The notes under the pieces were generated by a model that was not told the DNA's origin, ran no database searches, and was given only the letters and a program-made list of their open reading frames with translations. A DNA stretch of 37,116 bases from Flavobacterium sp. GTDB lineage: Bacteria; Bacteroidota; Bacteroidia; Flavobacteriales; Flavobacteriaceae. Below, piece by piece: positions 5,227-37,116 of this stretch. The translations under genes were made by a program, and so were the position numbers. Numbering within the stretch: the first letter of the stretch is position 1; each line of letters begins with the position of its first letter. Location of the stretch: positions 1 to 37,116 of the forward strand of contig NZ_JAQTPQ010000004.1 of the NCBI RefSeq assembly GCF_028712645.1. The letters are read 5' to 3'.

Positions 5227-6279
5227 TTAAACATCATCAAAATCCACCACAATTTCTGCGGAGGTAGGATGTGCTTGGCAAGTTAAAACCAAACCATCGG
5301 CGACTTCTTTATCGGTTAGAATGGAGTTTTTTTTCATTTCGGCCGTTCCTGATTTTACTCGGGCGAGACAGCTGCTGCAAATTCCACCTTGGCAAGAATA
5401 GGGAGCATCGATGCCTTGTTTTAGGGCTGCTTCGAGGATGGTTTGTTTTTGCGACATTTCGAAAGTCGTTTCCTCATCGTCAACGAGAATGGAGATTTTC
5501 GTGTGACCTTCCAATGATTTTTCGATTTTATTTTCGGCAGTTGAAGTTGAAAATAATTCGAACTTGATATTTTTTTCAGCAATGTTATGTTCTTTTAAAA
5601 CAGTCGAAACGGTGTTAATCATTTCTTCGGGACCACACAAATAGAACTTGTCGAATTCCAATTCCTTGTGTTTGTTATTCAAGACAAAATTTACCACAGA
5701 TTTATCTATTCTTCCAAATAATTCGCCATTAACATTCGCTTGACTGAAAACATAATGCACAAATAATCGTCCTGTATATTTGAATTGTAAATCGTGTAAT
5801 TCTTGATGAAATATAGTTTCGTCAGCTGATTTATTTCCGTAAACCAAAACAAAAGAACTTCGAGGTTCGCTTTTCAAAACCGATTTTAGAATGGAAATTA
5901 CAGGAGTGATTCCGCTTCCAGCCACAAAAGCGGCGTAGTTTTTTTGTCGGTCAACTTGAGGTTCAAATGTGAATTTCCCTTCAGGTTTTCCTACCTCAAT
6001 TAAATCACCAACTTTTAGTTTTGTATTGGCAAATTGGGAGAAATTCCCGTTTTTAACTGCTTTTACAGCAATTCGCAATTCGCCACTATCGGGTGAAGAA
6101 CAAATAGAATAAGCTCGGCGAATTTCCTGTCCGTCAAGGGTCAATCTTAAATTAACATATTGACCTGCAATGAAGTTATAATTGGATTTTAATTCCTCGG
6201 GAATATTAAAAAGGATGGAAACTGCGGATGAAGTTTCGCGTTTTATCTCTTTTATAACAAGTTTCTTGAATGATGGCAT
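5227..6279 (-). CDS. FAD/NAD(P)-dependent 2Fe-2S ferredoxin reductase, PaaE-like
   Basis: A 350-aa three-domain electron-transfer protein. Residues 1-105 are an FAD-binding barrel with the flavin motif RAYS (55-58). Residues about 113-235 form the NAD(P)-binding domain, with GSGITP at 121-126 and YLCGPEEM at 213-220. Residues about 262-350 are a plant-type 2Fe-2S ferredoxin with Cys296, Cys301, Cys304 and Cys334 (C-x4-C-x2-C-x29-C). All cofactor residues are present. The order matches the reductase component PaaE of phenylacetyl-CoA epoxidase, but no paaABCD genes are in the window. I therefore call it only a PaaE-like ferredoxin reductase that passes electrons from NAD(P)H to an unidentified partner. 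It is divergent from padR, and two decayed relatives lie downstream. Confidence 0.9.
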   Translation of the reverse strand: MPSFKKLVIKEIKRETSSAVSILFNIPEELKSNYNFIAGQYVNLRLTLDGQEIRRAYSICSSPDSGELRIAVKAVKNGNFSQFANTKLKVGDLIEVGKPEGKFTFEPQVDRQKNYAAFVAGSGITPVISILKSVLKSEPRSSFVLVYGNKSADETIFHQELHDLQFKYTGRLFVHYVFSQANVNGELFGRIDKSVVNFVLNNKHKELEFDKFYLCGPEEMINTVSTVLKEHNIAEKNIKFELFSTSTAENKIEKSLEGHTKISILVDDEETTFEMSQKQTILEAALKQGIDAPYSCQGGICSSCLARVKSGTAEMKKNSILTDKEVADGLVLTCQAHPTSAEIVVDFDDV

Positions 6280-6359
6280 TTTAATAGTTTTTTACAAAGA
6301 TAGTAAACGCTTCAGGTTTCTAAAAATCAAAATTATTGAAAATTTTATACCTAAATTAA

Positions 6360-19824: not shown

Positions 19825-22797
19825 ATGAAACTATCTTTCCTTATTCCTTTTTTATTTCTTGTTTCTTCTGTGTTTTCTCAAAACTCATTTAAAGAGGAGA
19901 AAAAAGAATTTTCAAGAACTTTAACTAATACTAACGATGGCTCAATAATAAAAGGTACAGTGATTGAAGAAGCTACTGGAAAACCATTACCAGGTGTTCA
20001 AGTTATAGTAGTGGGAACAAAGTTGTTTACTGTTACAGATTCTGACGGGAGCTTTAACTTGAGAAAAATGGAAGCAGGTAAATACAACTTGCAATTTTCG
20101 TTATTTTCTTTTTCAACCAAAATTATTTCAGATGTAGAAGTTATTAATAACGAAGCAACAGTATTGACTGTTTCTTTATCGGAAATGAATGGAGTTCTTG
20201 ATGAAGTTGTAATAAAAACTGTTAAGGCAAAAGCAGAATCAATCAATTCACTTTTGACAATGCAAAAAAACAGTATTCGAGTTTCTGATGGAATTTCGGC
20301 CGAAAGTATAAAAAGAACCCCAGATAAAACTACTTCTGATGTTTTAAAACGTATTAGTGGTGCTAGTGTTCAAGACAACAAATTTGTTATTGTTAGAGGT
20401 TTGAATGAGCGTTATAATACGTCGTATTTAAATGGAGCTCCTCTTCCTAGTTCTGAACCAGATAGAAAAGCTTTTGCATTTGATATTTTTCCGGCTAATA
20501 TGATAGATAACTTAGTTATTTATAAAACAGCATCTCCAGATTTACCTGGAGAATTTGCAGGTGGTGTAATTGAAATTAATACAAAGGCAACTCCAGATAA
20601 AAATTTTCAAACAGTTTCAATTGGAGGTTCTTATAATACCATTACTACAGGTAAAAACCGATTATATTCTCAAGACACAAAAACAAGATTACCTTCCGAT
20701 TTTCCATCAACTGAAGCATTTCAAAGCATTCAAAAGAATCGTACAGAGAGCAATCTTTTGAATATTGCTGATTTATCCAAAACCTATCAAACGGATTGGA
20801 GCTTGAAATATAAAACTTTTAGTCCTAATACTAGTTTTCAATACACATTGGGTAGGTATTTTAAATTAAAAGGAGACGAAAGAGTAGGGATGTTACTTTC
20901 TGTAACCAATAATGTTTCTAATGATTATAATGTAATAATTAAAAGAACTTATGAAACTCCAGGAGCACTAAACAAAGACTTGGTGTTAAATAAATATAAC
21001 ACACAAAAGCTTTTTGCTGCTATTGCCAACGTTTCTTTAAAATTAAACACAAGAAATTCATTTAGTTTTAAAAACTTGTATAGTGTAAATAGTTTAAACA
21101 AAGTGATAGACGAAGATGGACGCTTGTCTCAAAATGATCCTATTTATGCTAGTACAACTACTCGATTTTATTCAATTAATAAGATTTATTCTGGACAATT
21201 AATTGGCGAACATTTCTTGCCAGTAAGTAAAATAAAAATAAACTGGGTTGGTTCTTATAATGCTGTAAATAGAGAGGTTCCTAATGAGCGCAGAAATTCC
21301 TATATCTATGTAAAAAATGATGACGGAACATTTACAACACCCTCTGCTTCATTTTCATTAAATGCCATAGGAAGTGAATATCCAGGTTCAATCTTTAGTT
21401 CAAAAAATGTAGAATCTATTTTTAGTACTAAAGTTGATGTAAGCAAAAAAATAAATTTTTCAGATTCTTTTAGCGCTGATATAAAAATTGGTGGTTTAAC
21501 TCAAGCAAGAAATAGAGACTTTCAAGCTAGACAATTGGGATATGTGAAGTTCAATGGTAGAATAGGGAATGTAAATTATGGTAATAGCACATTTTTATCT
21601 CCAATTTCTACTCAAGGAAACGAAACTATTTTTAACGCTTCGAATATGGGAATTCTTGGACCAAAATCTAGTGGATTAGTACTTTATGATGGTACAAAAG
21701 GAACAGATGCCTATACAGCAGAATCTAAATTAGACGCTGCCTATGTTATGGTAGATAATGCTTTTAATAAATTTAGGGTTATTTGGGGAGCAAGATTAGA
21801 AAATTATTCTCAAAAGTTAAATTCAAAAGAAGACTCTGGAAAACCAATTTTAGTTGACAAGTCTAAACTTGATATCTTGCCGTCTATAAATATAATTTAT
21901 AGTCTTAACAAAAAACAAAATATTAGATTAAGTGGTTCAAAAACTTTAAACCGTCCAGAGTTTAGAGAATTAGCACCATTTGTTTTTTATAATCCTGAGA
22001 CCGCACATAATACTGAGGGAAATCCAAATTTGAAAATTGCTACTATTGAAAATGCTGATTTGCGATATGAACTTTTCCCGGGGAAAGGGCAAGTATTTTC
22101 TGTTTCTACTTTTTATAAACGTTTTACAAATCCTATAGAAATTCAAGCCAAAGCGAATAATACTGATAAGTATGAAAATGCAAAATCAGGACGAAATTTT
22201 GGAGTAGAGCTTGAATATAGGACTTTATTCAGTTCCATATTTGGATCTAAAGAAACAAAAATATTAGATGATTTAACGTTTTTTACCAACTTGGCTGTTA
22301 TACGTTCTAAAGTAGATATTTCTAATTTAGTGAATTCTCCTACACTGGTAGATATTCCAATGCAAGGACAATCACCTTATGTTTTTAATGCAGGATTACA
22401 ATATATGAATAAAGAAAAAGGTTGGTCTTCGGCTTTAAATCTTAACAAAATTGGAAATAGAATTAATATCCACGGAAACCAAACAACAGGTAGTTCAACA
22501 CCAGCTTATTGGGAAAAAAGCAGAGCTTTTTTAGATTTTCAATTAGCTAAAAGTTTCTTGAAAAATAAATTAGAATTGAAACTTAATATTCAAAATATCT
22601 TGGCTCAAGATTTAATTATTTATCAAAATAATGATTTAGAAAGCACCCCAAAAATAAAAGGATTCAAATCAGTTATGAATTCAGTTTTTACGGGAGACTC
22701 TCAAAATAAAAATGGGTATAATAGCAAGGAAGACGATTTGAACTTTAGTACAAAATTTGGACAATCTTTTTCACTTACATTAAACTATAGTTTTTAA
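19825..22797 (+). CDS. TonB-dependent outer-membrane receptor
   Basis: A 990-aa receptor. Residues 1-19 are a signal peptide (FLFLVSSVFSQ). About 30-120 form a carboxypeptidase-regulatory-like domain (IIKGTVIEEATGKPLPGVQV). About 150-255 form the plug: TTSDVLKRISGASVQ, then VIVRGLNERYNTSYLNGAPLP, and SPDLPGEFAGGVIEINTK at its end. The rest is a 22-strand-type barrel ending in the classical terminal Phe (SLTLNYSF). It should import, with TonB energy, a ligand that the sequence does not reveal. The next gene, 180 bp downstream behind its own terminator and promoter-like box, encodes a T9SS-exported surface protein, possibly a substrate-capturing partner. Confidence 0.92.
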   Translation: MKLSFLIPFLFLVSSVFSQNSFKEEKKEFSRTLTNTNDGSIIKGTVIEEATGKPLPGVQVIVVGTKLFTVTDSDGSFNLRKMEAGKYNLQFSLFSFSTKIISDVEVINNEATVLTVSLSEMNGVLDEVVIKTVKAKAESINSLLTMQKNSIRVSDGISAESIKRTPDKTTSDVLKRISGASVQDNKFVIVRGLNERYNTSYLNGAPLPSSEPDRKAFAFDIFPANMIDNLVIYKTASPDLPGEFAGGVIEINTKATPDKNFQTVSIGGSYNTITTGKNRLYSQDTKTRLPSDFPSTEAFQSIQKNRTESNLLNIADLSKTYQTDWSLKYKTFSPNTSFQYTLGRYFKLKGDERVGMLLSVTNNVSNDYNVIIKRTYETPGALNKDLVLNKYNTQKLFAAIANVSLKLNTRNSFSFKNLYSVNSLNKVIDEDGRLSQNDPIYASTTTRFYSINKIYSGQLIGEHFLPVSKIKINWVGSYNAVNREVPNERRNSYIYVKNDDGTFTTPSASFSLNAIGSEYPGSIFSSKNVESIFSTKVDVSKKINFSDSFSADIKIGGLTQARNRDFQARQLGYVKFNGRIGNVNYGNSTFLSPISTQGNETIFNASNMGILGPKSSGLVLYDGTKGTDAYTAESKLDAAYVMVDNAFNKFRVIWGARLENYSQKLNSKEDSGKPILVDKSKLDILPSINIIYSLNKKQNIRLSGSKTLNRPEFRELAPFVFYNPETAHNTEGNPNLKIATIENADLRYELFPGKGQVFSVSTFYKRFTNPIEIQAKANNTDKYENAKSGRNFGVELEYRTLFSSIFGSKETKILDDLTFFTNLAVIRSKVDISNLVNSPTLVDIPMQGQSPYVFNAGLQYMNKEKGWSSALNLNKIGNRINIHGNQTTGSSTPAYWEKSRAFLDFQLAKSFLKNKLELKLNIQNILAQDLIIYQNNDLESTPKIKGFKSVMNSVFTGDSQNKNGYNSKEDDLNFSTKFGQSFSLTLNYSF

Positions 22798-22977: not shown

Positions 22978-25900
22978 ATGAAAAAAATTTACGTTTTATC
23001 AATGCTTTTATTAGTAAGTTGCGTTGGTTTTGCACAATTCACCTCAACAACTTATCGAGGAGCATTTGCACCAGCACCAACTCCAATGTGGACAGACACT
23101 TGGACTAACTTCGACCCACAAAATGCAGTTTATCCAGCAACAAATGTTGATGTAACAGCAAATATTACAGTAGACACACACTGGACAGTAGGAAACACAT
23201 ACTATTTGAAAAATCAAATTTATGTAAAAAACAACGCGACTTTAACCATTGATGCAGGAGTAGTTATCAAAGGAGATCATCTTGCAACAGGAGCAGGTTT
23301 ATTTGTTACTAAAGGGTCAAAAGTTAATGCCATAGGAACAGCAACTAATCCAATTGTATTTACTTCAGATCAAGCTCCAGGAAATAGAGCAGCAGGAGAT
23401 TGGGGAGGAATAATATTGTTAGGAAAAGGATCATTTAATATCAATGGAGGTGTAAACAATATTGAAGGTATTACAGCCTCAGCAGATACACAATACGGTG
23501 GAGGTTCAACACCAGATGACAATGACAATTCAGGAACATTAAAATATGTTCGTATAGAATTTGCAGGATATGTTTATGCAGTAAATTCTGAAATCAATGG
23601 ATTGACATTTGGAGCAGTAGGAAGAGGAACGACAGTTGATTATGTTCAGGTTTCTTTTGCTAATGATGATTCGTTCGAATGGTTTGGAGGAACAGTAAAC
23701 TGTAAACACTTGGTAGCTTTTAGAGGATTAGATGATGATTTTGATACGGATAATGGATTCAGCGGAAACGTTCAATTTTGTTTAGGAGTAAGAGATCCAC
23801 AAATTTCTGATGTTCCAGCAATTTCAACATCAAATGGATTTGAATCAGACAATAATGCAACAAGTGATGCTGTATCACCATACACAAGTGCATTATTTTC
23901 AAATGTAACGATAGTTGGGCCACATAAGAGAGTTACTTTGCCAAATGGAGGAACTTTAGCAGTTGGTTTTGGTAGAGATGCGCAGTTGAGAAGAAACACT
24001 AAACAAAAAATATTCAACACTATCTTTATGGATTACAACAACGGTATTAACGTTGATGGTGAAACTACTGAAACAAATGCGTTTAATAATGAGTTAAAAT
24101 TCAAAAACAACATTATAGCAGCAACTGTTACAGGTAAAACTTATTACAAAGCAGCAGCGCCAAATAATGCAAGTTTTGATATTGCTTCTTGGTTCACAAC
24201 AAGCAACAATACAGCAGTAGCTTTAAGCGATGGAATACTTATTAAACCTTACGATTTGACAGATGCTCAAGTTTACACAGGATTAGATTACAGACCATCA
24301 ACAAGTTCAATTGCTGCAACTGGTGCTGATTTTACTGATGCAAGTCTAGTAGGAAATATTCAATCTACTTTCTACTACGTAGATGTAGATGGTGATGGAT
24401 ACGATTCAGGTACTGCAGTACTAAGCGATGCAACTCCGCCAACTGGGTATTCACTTACTACATTGGGTTCGGATTGTGATGATACAAATTCAGCTATACA
24501 CGCTAATTGTCCTACAATTACAACGGTTCCTTACAGAGGAGCATTTGCACCAGCTCCAATTCCAATGTGGACAGACACTTGGACTAACTTCGACCCACAA
24601 AATACAGTTTATCCAGCAACAAATGTTGATGTAACAGCAAATATTACAGTAGACACACACTGGACAGCAGGAAACACATACTATTTGAAAAATCAAATTT
24701 ATGTAAAAAACAACGCGACTTTAACCATTGATGCAGGAGTAGTTATCAAAGGAGATCATCTTGCAACAGGAGCAGGTTTATTTGTTACTAAAGGGTCAAA
24801 AGTTAATGCCATAGGAACAGCAACTAATCCAATTGTATTTACTTCAGATCAAGCTCCAGGAAATAGAGCAGCAGGAGATTGGGGAGGAATAATATTGTTA
24901 GGAAAAGGATCATTTAATATCAATGGAGGTGTAAACAATATTGAAGGTATTACAGCCTCAGCAGATACACAATACGGTGGAGGTTCAACACCAGATGACA
25001 ATGACAATTCAGGAACATTAAAATATGTTCGTATAGAATTTGCAGGATATGTTTATGCAGTAAATTCTGAAATCAATGGATTGACATTTGGAGCAGTAGG
25101 AAGAGGAACGACAGTTGATTATGTTCAGGTTTCTTTTGCTAATGATGATTCGTTCGAATGGTTTGGAGGAACAGTAAACTGTAAACACTTGGTAGCTTTT
25201 AGAGGATTAGATGATGATTTTGATACGGATAATGGATTCAGCGGAAACGTTCAATTTTGTTTAGGAGTAAGAGATCCACAAATTTCTGATGTTCCAGCAA
25301 TTTCAACATCAAATGGATTTGAATCAGACAATAATGCAACAAGTGATGCTGTATCACCATACACAAGTGCATTATTTTCAAATGTAACGATAGTTGGGCC
25401 ACATAAGAGAGTTACTTTGCCAAATGGAGGAACTTTAGCAGTTGGTTTTGGTAGAGATGCGCAGTTGAGAAGAAACACTAAACAAAAAATATTCAACACT
25501 ATCTTTATGGATTACAACAACGGTATTAACGTTGATGGTGAAACTACTGAAACAAATGCGTTTAATAATGAGTTAAAATTCAAAAACAACATTATAGCAG
25601 CAACTGTTACAGGTAAAACTTATTACAAAGCAGCAGCGCCAAATAATGCAAGTTTTGATATTGCTTCTTGGTTCACAACAAGCAACAATACAGCAGTAGC
25701 TTTAAGCGATGGAATACTTATTAAACCTTACGATTTGACAGATGCTCAAGTTTACACAGGATTAGATTACAGACCATCAACAAGTTCAATTGCTGCAACT
25801 GGTGCTGATTTTACTGGAGTTAGTCTTGGAACTGATAATTTCATAGCAAGTTCTGAATTTTCTTTAGTGGTTTATCCAAATCCATCTGCAAGTACTTTCA

Positions 25901-26100
25901 AACTAAACTATATCTCATCTAGTAATGAAAAGGTAAAAGTTGATGCTTATGATCTTACAGGTAGATTATTAGAATCTCGTAATGTAGAATATACTAATAT
26001 CAACAATCAAGAAATAGGTAATGGATATGCTCCAGGAGTTTATATAGTTGTTTTAAAACAAGGGAACATTACTAAATCTGTTAGAGTTATCAAAAACTAA
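22978..26100 (+). CDS. T9SS-exported surface protein with tandemly duplicated beta-rich domain
   Basis: A 1040-aa secreted protein. Residues 1-20 are a signal peptide (LLLVSCVGFAQ). Residues 29-453 and 522-946 are two copies of the same domain. It resembles the Bacteroidota parallel-beta-helix type (ATLTIDAGVVIKGDH, NPIVFTSDQAPG, GDWGGIILLGKG). Between them (466-511) lies YVDVDGDGYDSGTAV followed by SDCDDTNSAIHA, similar to the MopE-type putative metal-binding linker. Residues about 960-1040 are a type A T9SS C-terminal sorting domain (VVYPNPSASTFKLNY, then YAPGVYIVVLKQGN, ending SVRVIKN). The product is therefore likely carried across the outer membrane and attached or released by the PorU-type system. 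The partner may be the TonB receptor just upstream. Function of the domain is unknown. Confidence 0.88.
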   Translation: MKKIYVLSMLLLVSCVGFAQFTSTTYRGAFAPAPTPMWTDTWTNFDPQNAVYPATNVDVTANITVDTHWTVGNTYYLKNQIYVKNNATLTIDAGVVIKGDHLATGAGLFVTKGSKVNAIGTATNPIVFTSDQAPGNRAAGDWGGIILLGKGSFNINGGVNNIEGITASADTQYGGGSTPDDNDNSGTLKYVRIEFAGYVYAVNSEINGLTFGAVGRGTTVDYVQVSFANDDSFEWFGGTVNCKHLVAFRGLDDDFDTDNGFSGNVQFCLGVRDPQISDVPAISTSNGFESDNNATSDAVSPYTSALFSNVTIVGPHKRVTLPNGGTLAVGFGRDAQLRRNTKQKIFNTIFMDYNNGINVDGETTETNAFNNELKFKNNIIAATVTGKTYYKAAAPNNASFDIASWFTTSNNTAVALSDGILIKPYDLTDAQVYTGLDYRPSTSSIAATGADFTDASLVGNIQSTFYYVDVDGDGYDSGTAVLSDATPPTGYSLTTLGSDCDDTNSAIHANCPTITTVPYRGAFAPAPIPMWTDTWTNFDPQNTVYPATNVDVTANITVDTHWTAGNTYYLKNQIYVKNNATLTIDAGVVIKGDHLATGAGLFVTKGSKVNAIGTATNPIVFTSDQAPGNRAAGDWGGIILLGKGSFNINGGVNNIEGITASADTQYGGGSTPDDNDNSGTLKYVRIEFAGYVYAVNSEINGLTFGAVGRGTTVDYVQVSFANDDSFEWFGGTVNCKHLVAFRGLDDDFDTDNGFSGNVQFCLGVRDPQISDVPAISTSNGFESDNNATSDAVSPYTSALFSNVTIVGPHKRVTLPNGGTLAVGFGRDAQLRRNTKQKIFNTIFMDYNNGINVDGETTETNAFNNELKFKNNIIAATVTGKTYYKAAAPNNASFDIASWFTTSNNTAVALSDGILIKPYDLTDAQVYTGLDYRPSTSSIAATGADFTGVSLGTDNFIASSEFSLVVYPNPSASTFKLNYISSSNEKVKVDAYDLTGRLLESRNVEYTNINNQEIGNGYAPGVYIVVLKQGNITKSVRVIKN
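23062..24337 (+). repeat. tandem duplication copy 1 (1276 bp)
   Basis: This stretch recurs 1479 bp downstream at 24541-25816. By eye the two copies differ at four bases only, all within the first ~135 bp (cagcacc/cagctcc, actcc/attcc, atgcag/atacag, cagtagg/cagcagg). The remaining ~1.1 kb appears identical. The period keeps the reading frame (493 codons). Confidence 0.93.
24541..25816 (+). repeat. tandem duplication copy 2 (1276 bp)
   Basis: Second copy of the unit described at 23062-24337, separated from the first by a 203-bp linker that encodes the metal-binding-like segment. Homology ends at ...gattttactg on both, after which this copy leads into the T9SS tail. Confidence 0.93.
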
Positions 26101-33381: not shown

Positions 33382-36300
33382 ATGATACGAAAAATTACAT
33401 CAACCAATATTGTTTTAAAAATGATATTTGTTTTTTTGCTATTTTCTTTGCAAATAAACGCACAGTTTAAGATTTTAAATAACGGACAAAGAAGAATTGG
33501 AAACGGAGCAGAAAATTCAATAAACTCTTCCGGAAATATGCAACAACCGTTTTATTACAACAGTGCTTTAAGTACTTGGAGACAGTTAACTTATAGTACT
33601 TACCCATTAGATATTAGATGGGGAGTTGGCGGAGACGGCACCAATAATTGGAATATTAACGGAAGTATGCAAGATAACCCAATAGTGTCTAATCCTGTAT
33701 ATGACTACACAGGGTTTACAACTACAAATGCTGTCACTGGTGATGGTTATGGCGTCATTAAATTTTCTGGAAATATAACAATCAATTCTCAGTTATTTCT
33801 TTTAGAAAACACCTATACCCTTTTACAACCCGATGGGTTTTTTAGAATAAAAGTAAAAATCACTAATTTAAGCGGCACAACTGCTAGTAATGTTAGGCTT
33901 TGGGTGGGCACCCGTGACGATTGGGTTGGAGGTTCAGATGGACCAACTAAAGAGAGGGGTAATTTAGTTAATGGTGTATTTACATTAATACCAACTATGG
34001 CAACCCAAGCAAAAGCAATTAAGGTGTCTTCTGGAACAGAGGCTATTTTGTTTTTTAGTAATTCTCCTAGGGCATATTCAACTATAAATAGTTGCTGTTC
34101 CTTTACAAATGCTACAAACCAAGATCCCGCAACAAATACCATAACCCAAACAGGCGATGGTTCTTACGCTACGTATGTTCGATTTAATGATTTATTGTCA
34201 GGGCAAAGTGATGAACTAGATTGGTATTATGCTTCAGGAACATTAGTTGAAATTGCCGACATCATTCTTAAAGTAGCAGAAGCTGCATCTGCAGTAAGTA
34301 ATATTTCTTATACTTCGGCAGATTATTCTTATTCTGCTTCACAAACTGGAACGACAAGTTATCTTTTAGTTCCTGCTGGATCAACCGTGCCTACTGATGT
34401 GCAAATTGAAGCTGGAGTAAACTATTCTGGAGGCACCGTGATTTCTAGCAGCTCTATCCCTAGTGTTGCCAATGTGGCTCATATCTATAATTTTACAGGG
34501 CTTACCTATGATTCAAATTATAGTGTATATGCAGTTACAAAATTTTTTAACGGAGTTAGCAATGTATTCACTTCGGTACAGGCTACAAATTTTGCAACTC
34601 TTGCTAATGACTTACCTGTTGGTTCAGCAATTGCTAATCAAACAACTTGTATCAATGGTTCTATTAGCGACCTTTCTTTAAACATTACAGATGCATACCC
34701 TGGCGATAATACCTATACTGTTACCGGAAGTTCTTCTAATACTAGTTTAGTTCCTAACAGTAATATTGTTATTACAGGCACAGGTAGCTCAAGATCTATC
34801 GCTATAACACCAAGTGCCGGGATAAGCGGCACAAGTACTATTACAATTTTAATGACTGATAGTTTAGGGGCAATAGGAACACGAACCTTTAATGTGACTT
34901 TTAATGATATTATAGCACCAACAATTACAGCACCTTCAGCAGTTTCGGCAAACACAAATGTTGGTTGTACAGCTACAGGTGTTTCACTTGGAACTCCAGT
35001 AACAGCAGATAATTGCGCAGTGGTATCCGTAACAAACAATGCGCCTGTAGCTTTCCCAAAAGGAGTAAACACAGTTATATGGACTGTTACTGACATTGGA
35101 GGAAATACCGCAACCGCATCACAAATAGTAACTATTTTAGATGCACAAAATCCAACAATAGCAACATTGACAGCAATAAGTGTCAATGCTAGTGCTGGAG
35201 TTTGTAGCTATGACAGTTCACTATTAACCCCACCTACAACTGCAGATAATTGTAGTGTTGCAAGTGTGATAGCTTCTCCCGCAAGTTTAGTGCTAGGTGC
35301 AAATACCGTAACTTGGACAGTAACTGATAGTTCGGGATTAACAGCAACTTCTACGCAAACAGTAACCGTGGTAGATACCCAAAATCCAACAATTACAGCT
35401 CCTTCGGCCGTTTCTGCAACTACAAATTCAGGGTGTACTGCAACAGGTGTTTCACTTGGAACTCCAGTAACAGCTGATAATTGTACTGTTGCATCCGTTA
35501 CTAACAATGCTCCAATAGCTTTTCCTTTAGGAGCAACAACCGTAACTTGGACAGTAACAGATGGAGCAGGAAGAACTGCCACAGCGACCCAAACAGTAAC
35601 AGTAACAGACAATGTAAATCCAACGATTACAGCTCCTGCAACAGTAAATGCAACAACAAATTCAGGATGTACTGCAACAGGTGTTTCACTTGGAACTCCA
35701 GTAACAGCTGATAATTGTTCTGTTGCAAGTGTAACAAACAATCACGCATCAACCACCTATCCATTGGGAGTGACAACCGTAACTTGGACCGTAACTGATG
35801 GTTCAGGAAGAACAGCTACAGCTACTCAAACGGTAAATGTTACTGATAATGTGAACCCAACAATAACAGCTCCTGCTGACGTTTCTTCAGATGTAAATGG
35901 TTCTTGTGTGTCATCATCAGTAGTTTTAGGAACACCAGTAGCGACCGACAACTGTTCTGTTTCGAGTGTAACAAATGATGCGCCATCAACTTTCCCATTA
36001 GGTGTTACAACTGTAACTTGGACCGTAACTGATGGCAATGGTAATACCGCAACAGCGACACAATTAGTATCTGTCGGTGATGTGATTTATCCTATTGTCA
36101 AAACAAAAAATGCTACTGTTTATCTTAATGATTTAGGTCAAGCGTTAGTAACACCAGCAATGATAGATAATGGAACGACTGACAATTGCGATTTTTCACT
36201 TATCGTTTCGCCTAACAACTTCGTTTGTGGAAATGTGGGTGTAAATAATGTGATTCTTATAGCAACAGATGCTAGTGGAAACCAAACCATTAGACCTGCA

Positions 36301-37116
36301 TTTGTAACCGTTGTAGATAATCTACCACCTACAATAACAGCCCCAGCAGCGGTATCGGCTATAGCCAATGCCTCTTGTGGTGCAACAGGTGTTGTTTTAG
36401 GAACACCAATTACTGCCGATAATTGTTATATAGATACACCAGCGGTAAATAATGCTCCAGCTACTTTCCCACTAGGAGCTACAACAGTAACTTGGACGGT
36501 AACAGATCGTAATGGAAACAATGCAACGGCTTCACAAATTGTAACCGTAACAGATACTCAAAATCCAACCGTAGCTACATTAGACCCAATTAGTGTCAAT
36601 GCTGATGCTGGAGTTTGTACCTATGCAAGTTCTCAATTGACAGCACCAACAGCTACAGATAATTGCAGTATAGCAAGTGTTGTGTCTACCCCAGCTGTTT
36701 TAAGTTTAGGTGATAATACAGTAACTTGGACTGCAACTGATGGAAGTGGAAACACAGCAACCTCTACTCAAACCGTAACAGTTATTGACACTCAGAAACC
36801 AACAATTGCATTATCAAATGTTATAGTTTCAGCCAATGCTTCTTGTGAGGCAACAGGTGTAGATTTAGGAATTCCGGTTACAACTGACAATTGTTCTGTT
36901 GCAAGCACTTCAAATGATGCGCCAACTACTTTTCCTTTGGGAAATACAACTGTAACTTGGACTGTAGCTGATGGTAGCGGAAATACGGAAACTTCTACTC
37001 AAACAGTAACAGTTATTGATGCTCAAAATCCAACAATTGTTACATTAGTCCCAATTAGCGTAAATGCAGATGAAGCTGTTTGTACTTATGCAAGTTCACA
37101 ATTGACAGCTCCAGCA
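33382..37116 (+). CDS. large secreted adhesin-like protein with Fn3-like domain and HYR-type repeats (partial, runs off right edge)
   Basis: An open frame of 1245 codons from the ATG at 33382 with no stop before the window end; the ORF track omits it and shows only antisense shadows. Residues 1-29 are a signal peptide (IFVFLLFSLQINAQ). About 30-295 form an N-terminal domain, rich in Trp and Gly (IRWGVGGDGTNNWNING), not recognised. About 300-405 resemble a fibronectin type III domain (ISYTSADYSYSASQTGTTSY). From about 513 the protein consists of HYR (hyalin)-type repeats of 77-79 residues. Each complete repeat has two Cys, one early and one in DNC, except the sixth, which is divergent. Most end in TVTWTVTDG...GNTATATQTVTV. 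Nine complete repeats and a tenth, truncated, are visible. A T9SS sorting tail is expected but lies outside. It is probably a cell-surface adhesin. Confidence 0.87.
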   Translation, partial: MIRKITSTNIVLKMIFVFLLFSLQINAQFKILNNGQRRIGNGAENSINSSGNMQQPFYYNSALSTWRQLTYSTYPLDIRWGVGGDGTNNWNINGSMQDNPIVSNPVYDYTGFTTTNAVTGDGYGVIKFSGNITINSQLFLLENTYTLLQPDGFFRIKVKITNLSGTTASNVRLWVGTRDDWVGGSDGPTKERGNLVNGVFTLIPTMATQAKAIKVSSGTEAILFFSNSPRAYSTINSCCSFTNATNQDPATNTITQTGDGSYATYVRFNDLLSGQSDELDWYYASGTLVEIADIILKVAEAASAVSNISYTSADYSYSASQTGTTSYLLVPAGSTVPTDVQIEAGVNYSGGTVISSSSIPSVANVAHIYNFTGLTYDSNYSVYAVTKFFNGVSNVFTSVQATNFATLANDLPVGSAIANQTTCINGSISDLSLNITDAYPGDNTYTVTGSSSNTSLVPNSNIVITGTGSSRSIAITPSAGISGTSTITILMTDSLGAIGTRTFNVTFNDIIAPTITAPSAVSANTNVGCTATGVSLGTPVTADNCAVVSVTNNAPVAFPKGVNTVIWTVTDIGGNTATASQIVTILDAQNPTIATLTAISVNASAGVCSYDSSLLTPPTTADNCSVASVIASPASLVLGANTVTWTVTDSSGLTATSTQTVTVVDTQNPTITAPSAVSATTNSGCTATGVSLGTPVTADNCTVASVTNNAPIAFPLGATTVTWTVTDGAGRTATATQTVTVTDNVNPTITAPATVNATTNSGCTATGVSLGTPVTADNCSVASVTNNHASTTYPLGVTTVTWTVTDGSGRTATATQTVNVTDNVNPTITAPADVSSDVNGSCVSSSVVLGTPVATDNCSVSSVTNDAPSTFPLGVTTVTWTVTDGNGNTATATQLVSVGDVIYPIVKTKNATVYLNDLGQALVTPAMIDNGTTDNCDFSLIVSPNNFVCGNVGVNNVILIATDASGNQTIRPAFVTVVDNLPPTITAPAAVSAIANASCGATGVVLGTPITADNCYIDTPAVNNAPATFPLGATTVTWTVTDRNGNNATASQIVTVTDTQNPTVATLDPISVNADAGVCTYASSQLTAPTATDNCSIASVVSTPAVLSLGDNTVTWTATDGSGNTATSTQTVTVIDTQKPTIALSNVIVSANASCEATGVDLGIPVTTDNCSVASTSNDAPTTFPLGNTTVTWTVADGSGNTETSTQTVTVIDAQNPTIVTLVPISVNADEAVCTYASSQLTAPA
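34909..37116 (+). repeat. HYR-repeat array, 77-79 codons per unit
   Basis: Unit boundaries, measured at the Pro of xPT/PI: 34918, 35152, 35386, 35620, 35857, 36091, 36328, 36565, 36799 and 37030. Spacing is 231-237 bp. Two repeat types alternate irregularly: type A (ITAP..VSA..CTATGVSLGTPVTADNC) and type B (ATL..ISVNA.AGVC.Y.SSLLTPP). The sixth unit is divergent and reads IVKTKNATVYLNDLGQA. Units 3 and 4 share an almost identical 60-bp block (gtttcacttggaactcc...). Confidence 0.88.

Follow-up and report, generated by a model that had tools for sequence, protein, structure and literature searches.

The window (the whole stretch of 37,116 nucleotides analyzed here) encodes a Flavobacterium surface protein that carries two near-identical copies, R1 and R2, of a 427-residue domain (R). 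The explanation that best accounts for the data overall, and which we consider highly probable, is that a T9SS-exported protein with two beta-helices and an acidic linker works with a partner TonB-dependent receptor, and that its duplication is old while its copies evolve in concert. What looks like a recent duplication is thus re-read as long-term concerted evolution. In the proposed mechanism, the protein would present two right-handed beta-helix domains, connected by the acidic linker, beside the receptor. Homologous recombination between R1 and R2 would repeatedly overwrite one copy with the other, either by gene conversion or by unequal exchange followed by contraction. The same process would occasionally delete the linker and one copy, giving rise to single-domain relatives.

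Architecture and genomic setting

The encoded protein begins with a putative signal peptide, continues with R1, the linker and R2, and ends in a T9SS type A sorting domain (Table 1). The proposal in the preliminary description that this is a T9SS surface protein is borne out: the C-terminal TIGR04183 match (E=2.5e-10; 40.2 bits against a cut-off of 23) and the Por_Secre_tail match in Pfam (PF18962; 34 bits against a cut-off of 27) mark it as probable T9SS type A cargo. The putative signal peptide contains the motif LVSC, which looks lipobox-like. As F. soyangense lacks a cysteine at this position, type I cleavage ahead of T9SS export appears more likely than processing as a lipoprotein.

Table 1. 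Features of the two-domain gene and its upstream neighbor (window coordinates).
Feature	Position	Strand	Basis
TonB-dependent receptor, presumed partner	19825..22797	+	Plug, CarbopepD_reg_2, OMP_b-brl_3 (Pfam)
1040-aa T9SS surface protein	22978..26100	+	ORF and translation; TIGR04183 and PF18962 matches
Putative signal peptide MKKIYVLSMLLLVSCVGFAQ	22978..23037	+	Read by eye from translation
Copy R1, 427-residue beta-helix domain	23057..24337	+	Offset identity scan; AlphaFold2 model
R1 5' edge, site of all four R1/R2 differences	23057..23189	+	Copy comparison
66-aa unique linker between R1 and R2	24338..24535	+	Homologues in four or more other Flavobacterium genomes
DVDGDGYD, Ca-loop-like acidic motif of the linker	24382..24405	+	Read from sequence
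DCDD, linker, 3' of DVDGDGYD	24472..24483	+	Read from sequence
Copy R2, 1277/1281 identical to R1	24536..25816	+	Offset identity scan
T9SS type A C-terminal sorting domain	25870..26097	+	TIGR04183, residues 965-1040

R matches no Pfam or NCBIfam family significantly. Its AlphaFold2 model, based on a 71-sequence alignment, consists mostly of strands in ladder order (pLDDT 96.1, pTM 0.95). Foldseek searches with this model retrieved PL6 chondroitinase B, phage tailspikes and pectate lyase, the first two being the top hits in the PDB. As the TM-scores were low (about 0.3), the model supports placing R in the right-handed beta-helix fold class and leaves an enzyme assignment unsupported. A solved structure was sought by sequence with the A1 profile and none was found. 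The invariant residues of R between positions 158 and 267 are rich in Asp and Glu, a composition compatible with a candidate ligand or metal site. R relatives are encoded in at least 580 candidate stretches of Bacteroidota in one scan, and 48 of 60 related genomes contain a match. A domain of about 427 residues that is so widespread in Bacteroidota (window and loci L034-L113) deserves its own family model.

The 198-bp linker had been described as carrying a DxDxDG-type, metal-binding-like segment. The acidic motifs are present in the sequence, but Pfam returned no match to the linker above threshold, with Flg_new_2 (E=4e-4) and EF-hand_5 (E=0.07) both sub-threshold. A Cu-binding MopE domain was likewise considered for the linker and is unsupported by Pfam. 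In genome G160, two contigs (L145 and L146) end inside R. One of them stops in R1; the other begins within R and leads by way of a very short linker to R2, which looks like a loss of the acidic linker segment in this lineage.

The two-R gene lies directly downstream of its presumed partner receptor and after the ATP synthase genes, rather than beside phoBR. At the far end of the window (33382-37116), the gene of a large HYR/Ig-like repeat protein with eight HYR stretches is cut off where the contig ends; the assembly break probably lies within these repeats.

An old duplication with near-identical copies

Each copy in the window spans 1281 bp (427 codons), in frame and at an offset of 1479. 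Only four positions differ between R1 and R2 (23076 A/T, 23081 C/T, 23125 G/A, 23189 T/C), one synonymously and three non-synonymously, which leaves 99.3% amino-acid identity over 427 residues. All four lie in the first 133 bp and are followed by 1148 bp of unbroken identity. The chance of four random mismatches all falling in the first 133 of 1281 bp is about 1e-4, and the 5' clustering is not due to chance. The offset scan thus agrees with the preliminary description, which had reported about four differences clustered at the 5' end of two in-frame copies 1479 bp apart. It had placed the duplication at 23062-25816; the end is exact and the start falls 5 bp inside the true edge at 23057.

We looked for the R-linker-R layout in 401 Flavobacterium genomes, one of which is the source genome of the window. 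With a window-type linker, it was found in the window, F. soyangense (G169) and G303. It is also present in the metagenome-assembled genomes (MAGs) Ww45 (L036), where a 100-N gap lies inside R1, and Jr-20nov17-98 (Jr98b, L042), where it is truncated at the contig start. The linkers of the window, F. soyangense, G303 and Ww45 can be aligned over their whole length, and Jr98b also carries the linker. On matched stretches, the DNA of R1 and R2 is 99.5% identical in the window, 99.2% in F. soyangense and 85.2% in G303. The two assembled ends flanking the gap in Ww45 are 99.3% and 97.6% identical, and Jr98b shows 87.7% identity over a 350-bp stretch.

In the window species and F. soyangense, copies that are about 99% alike within a species differ by about 25% between the two. 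In the window, R1 and R2 are separated by a dS of 0.010, and in F. soyangense by a dS of 0.016. The R domains of the two species are about 1.05 apart, and most between-species comparisons involving either give 0.9-1.5. A maximum-likelihood tree built from 30 domain copies joins R1 with R2 in the window species (support 100/99) and likewise in F. soyangense (100/100). Constraining the R1 copies to a clade was rejected twice (dlnL 454, AU p 7.7e-5; dlnL 342, AU p 5.4e-6). Since the copies pair within species, the R1 clade is rejected and the linkers are alignable, we regard the duplication as old and its copies as homogenized separately within lineages. The R-linker-R layout was already in place when several Flavobacterium species diverged. 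Paralogues within a species are closer than orthologues between species despite their common duplication, as seen in dS, tree, AU test and linker; from this we infer that R1 and R2 evolve in concert.

These results weigh against a strain-specific, very recent tandem duplication without homogenization, which we regard as quite improbable. Taken alone, the dS of 0.010 and four mismatches in 1281 bp do look recent, and the nearest relative of the window, F. cellulosilyticum, has a single R copy and no linker. However, the same layout with a homologous linker occurs in F. soyangense, G303, Ww45 and Jr98b, and R2-specific 5' residues are common to several species. We rejected independent duplication in each species on account of the shared linker, which every such event would have had to introduce anew at an identical position. 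Of the two options offered in the preliminary description, "very recent duplication" finds no support, given a layout common to species whose R domains differ at a dS of about 1 or more. The other, ongoing gene conversion, finds support as homogenization in the within-species pairing and the rejected R1 clade. It is scarcely conceivable that purifying selection on both copies, instead of recombination, holds R1 and R2 identical. While dN is low in the family, synonymous sites are near-identical within species and near saturation between them, a pattern that selection at the protein level does not produce.

Concerted evolution is not universal among R domains. G303 retains the layout at only 85% identity between R1 and R2 (dS 0.73). 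Likewise, in a second two-domain gene type without the window-type linker (G010, G383, F. restrictum), the R1s and R2s form separate supported clades. Homogenization is therefore a property of some lineages and not of the R domain, and a single domain family combines lineages that homogenize, one lineage whose copies are only 85% identical, and another type of gene in which R1 and R2 stay distinct.

Possible recombination footprints, copy number and assembly limits

A position-specific signal that distinguishes R1 from R2 survives only at the 5' edge. The Ile of the motif (A/G)PIPMWTD is present in R2 of the window, F. soyangense and Jr98b and absent from R1 of the window and F. soyangense; the motif reads APIPMWTD in R2 of the first two and GPIPMWTD in Jr98b. 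In F. soyangense, ten mismatches within the first 66 bp are followed by 1239 identical bp. Asymmetric 5' divergence was considered as a general rule of the mechanism. It fits the window and F. soyangense but fails in G002, where R1 and R2 show 99.3% identity over their first 136 bp with the 5' edge included, and in Ww45, where R1 and R2 differ at both ends.

R copy number varies between species, with assembly caveats and one genome per species. In addition to F. cellulosilyticum, G419 has one R copy. The forecast that domain number would be variable holds at the between-species level, where sister species with one and two copies agree with it. Two single copies also have a mosaic appearance. 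That of F. cellulosilyticum matches window R1 at alignment column 28, a 5' site, and window R2 at column 72, with a base that no other compared row apart from window R2 carries; with very few sites, this would fit an R1/R2 junction. The G419 copy matches G303 R1 in its first quarter and leans to G303 R2 in the remainder (maximum chi-square permutation p 4e-4). G419 and G303 are sisters in the receptor tree and their receptors are almost identical. Single mosaic copies of this kind would fit recombinational loss of the linker and one copy. As several one-copy assemblies are drafts, this reading is suggestive only; a draft assembly that collapsed near-identical copies could also produce a single mosaic copy.

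Identical repeats longer than the sequencing reads break or collapse draft assemblies. The source assembly of the window is a draft (3.64 Mb, 389 contigs, 92% complete), and the other assemblies that show near-identical copies are likewise actual or possible short-read drafts. Single- or double-copy calls for the two-R gene in draft genomes are hence unreliable. Assemblers can merge isolated differences more than one k-mer apart, which could inflate the interior identity of 100% and part of the 5' clustering. Dense differences (four in 133 bp; ten in 66 bp) could hardly be hidden in this way. Given such merging, the true interior identity of R1 and R2 is better put, by our estimate, as about 99% or more, and the copy number in the window gene as at least two.

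A pure assembly artefact, in which one copy, or two clearly diverged copies, were duplicated or averaged by the assembler, is unlikely, and we assign it a very small probability. In its favor, the source genome is in 389 contigs, several relatives break or carry N inside the two-R gene, and merged isolated differences would mimic edge-only mismatches. Nevertheless, a unique 198-bp linker with R on either side is hard to derive from a single-copy gene, and assemblers are not expected to make dense differences identical. The same layout is found on an isolate contig of F. soyangense at 71x coverage, and G303 has it with clearly distinct copies. In G002 and G151, the contig breaks off about 140 bp after a second R copy begins, and this partial copy has 99.3% identity to the first, as expected of a real near-identical repeat. 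In a G151 locus (L159, approximately 6210-6280), R1 is about 43 nt shorter than R2 near the 5' edge and out of frame, reflecting either a real frameshift or a misjoin at the repeat edge.

There is a small probability that the assembler collapsed a longer (R-linker)n array to two copies. Near-identical repeats are prone to expansion and draft assemblies cannot count identical units longer than a read, but R never occurred more than twice per gene at the loci examined, including those of the single-contig genomes G010 and G383.

Receptor partners, phosphate loci and known systems

In nearly all loci checked, a TonB-dependent receptor adjoins the R gene. Across Bacteroidota loci, these receptors are 35-76% identical to that of the window, the best NCBIfam match of which is TIGR01782, below cut-off, and not SusC/RagA. 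A literature search for T9SS and TonB partners that carry a multidrug-transporter annotation yielded no match.

Single-domain R relatives are lipoproteins of about 390-470 aa. Eight loci (L170-L176, L179; Pfam check on L170) share the order phoR, phoB, TonB receptor, R lipoprotein. A further locus, L177, contains these genes too, but phoB and phoR lie downstream there (Pfam-checked), and L178 has the receptor without the phoB/phoR pair. The occurrence of this cluster in nine Flavobacteriales genomes suggests a conserved, phosphate-regulated pair of receptor and beta-helix protein. The same phoR-phoB-TBDT-R lipoprotein order is found in F. johnsoniae (Fjoh_0543-0546), where Fjoh_0546 (FII) is strongly induced on phosphate depletion (PMC8115612). 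Fjoh_0545 (PMC8115612) has the same three Pfam domains as the window receptor.

The F. johnsoniae exoproteins FI, FII and FIII (Fjoh_3856, Fjoh_0546, Fjoh_4889) are reported to be modest relatives of a Caulobacter low-phosphate lipoprotein (PMC8115612); the reference cited for the latter (PubMed 21152032) is the ElpS paper (PMC2996285). FI-FIII and ElpS of Caulobacter crescentus are surface lipoproteins. Like R by its model, FI-FIII have a predicted pectate-lyase/polygalacturonase-like (beta-helix) fold (PMC8115612), and the genes of FI and FII, like that of the window protein, adjoin a TBDT gene. The place that FII takes next to phoB/phoR is filled by the single-domain relatives of R. Judged by gene order and predicted fold, R may belong to the beta-helix family of the phosphate-starvation exoproteins FI and FII. 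In contrast to the single-domain FI-FIII and ElpS, the window protein combines two domains with a T9SS sorting domain, and it is no lipoprotein of a phoBR or other phosphate-regulated locus. The window protein family is probably linked to nutrient (phosphate) uptake. As the window gene does not lie beside phoBR, a phosphate role of its own would be extrapolated from relatives about 36-42% identical. R could, more speculatively, be a surface module that binds or processes a ligand and feeds its TonB receptor, and two copies might make this module bivalent or longer-reaching. The pairing resembles SusCD/PusCD in that a TonB-dependent receptor adjoins a surface protein, but the partner in the window is a beta-helix T9SS protein rather than a SusD lipoprotein.

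Among known kinds of protein, Periscope Proteins (SasG, Rib, Sgo_0707, CdrA) come closest. Their long and highly identical surface-protein repeats, which exceed 50 residues at 80% identity or more, readily recombine (PMC8201768). The window protein lies within these bounds (427 residues at 99.3% amino-acid identity), and its long, in-frame, highly identical repeats would likewise recombine and vary in number. In contrast to a head-to-tail stalk array, it consists of two large beta-helices and a unique 66-aa linker, is T9SS-exported and paired with a TonB receptor, and its length variation is seen between species only. We therefore class it as a new case of a bacterial surface protein undergoing concerted evolution, and not as a confirmed Periscope Protein; concerted evolution is a known evolutionary behavior, here in a little-studied family.

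R thus represents a large beta-helix family without a Pfam or NCBIfam model that is tied to TonB receptors and, via single-domain relatives, to phosphate-regulated loci. Tentatively, it may be a widespread, unnamed Bacteroidota family of TonB-receptor partners, akin to phosphate-starvation exoproteins; in some of its lineages, recurrent recombination would hold a pair of exported copies near-identical, so that copy number switches between one and two. If so, the R protein would be a periscope-like, length-switchable module for nutrient capture and not an adhesin stalk.
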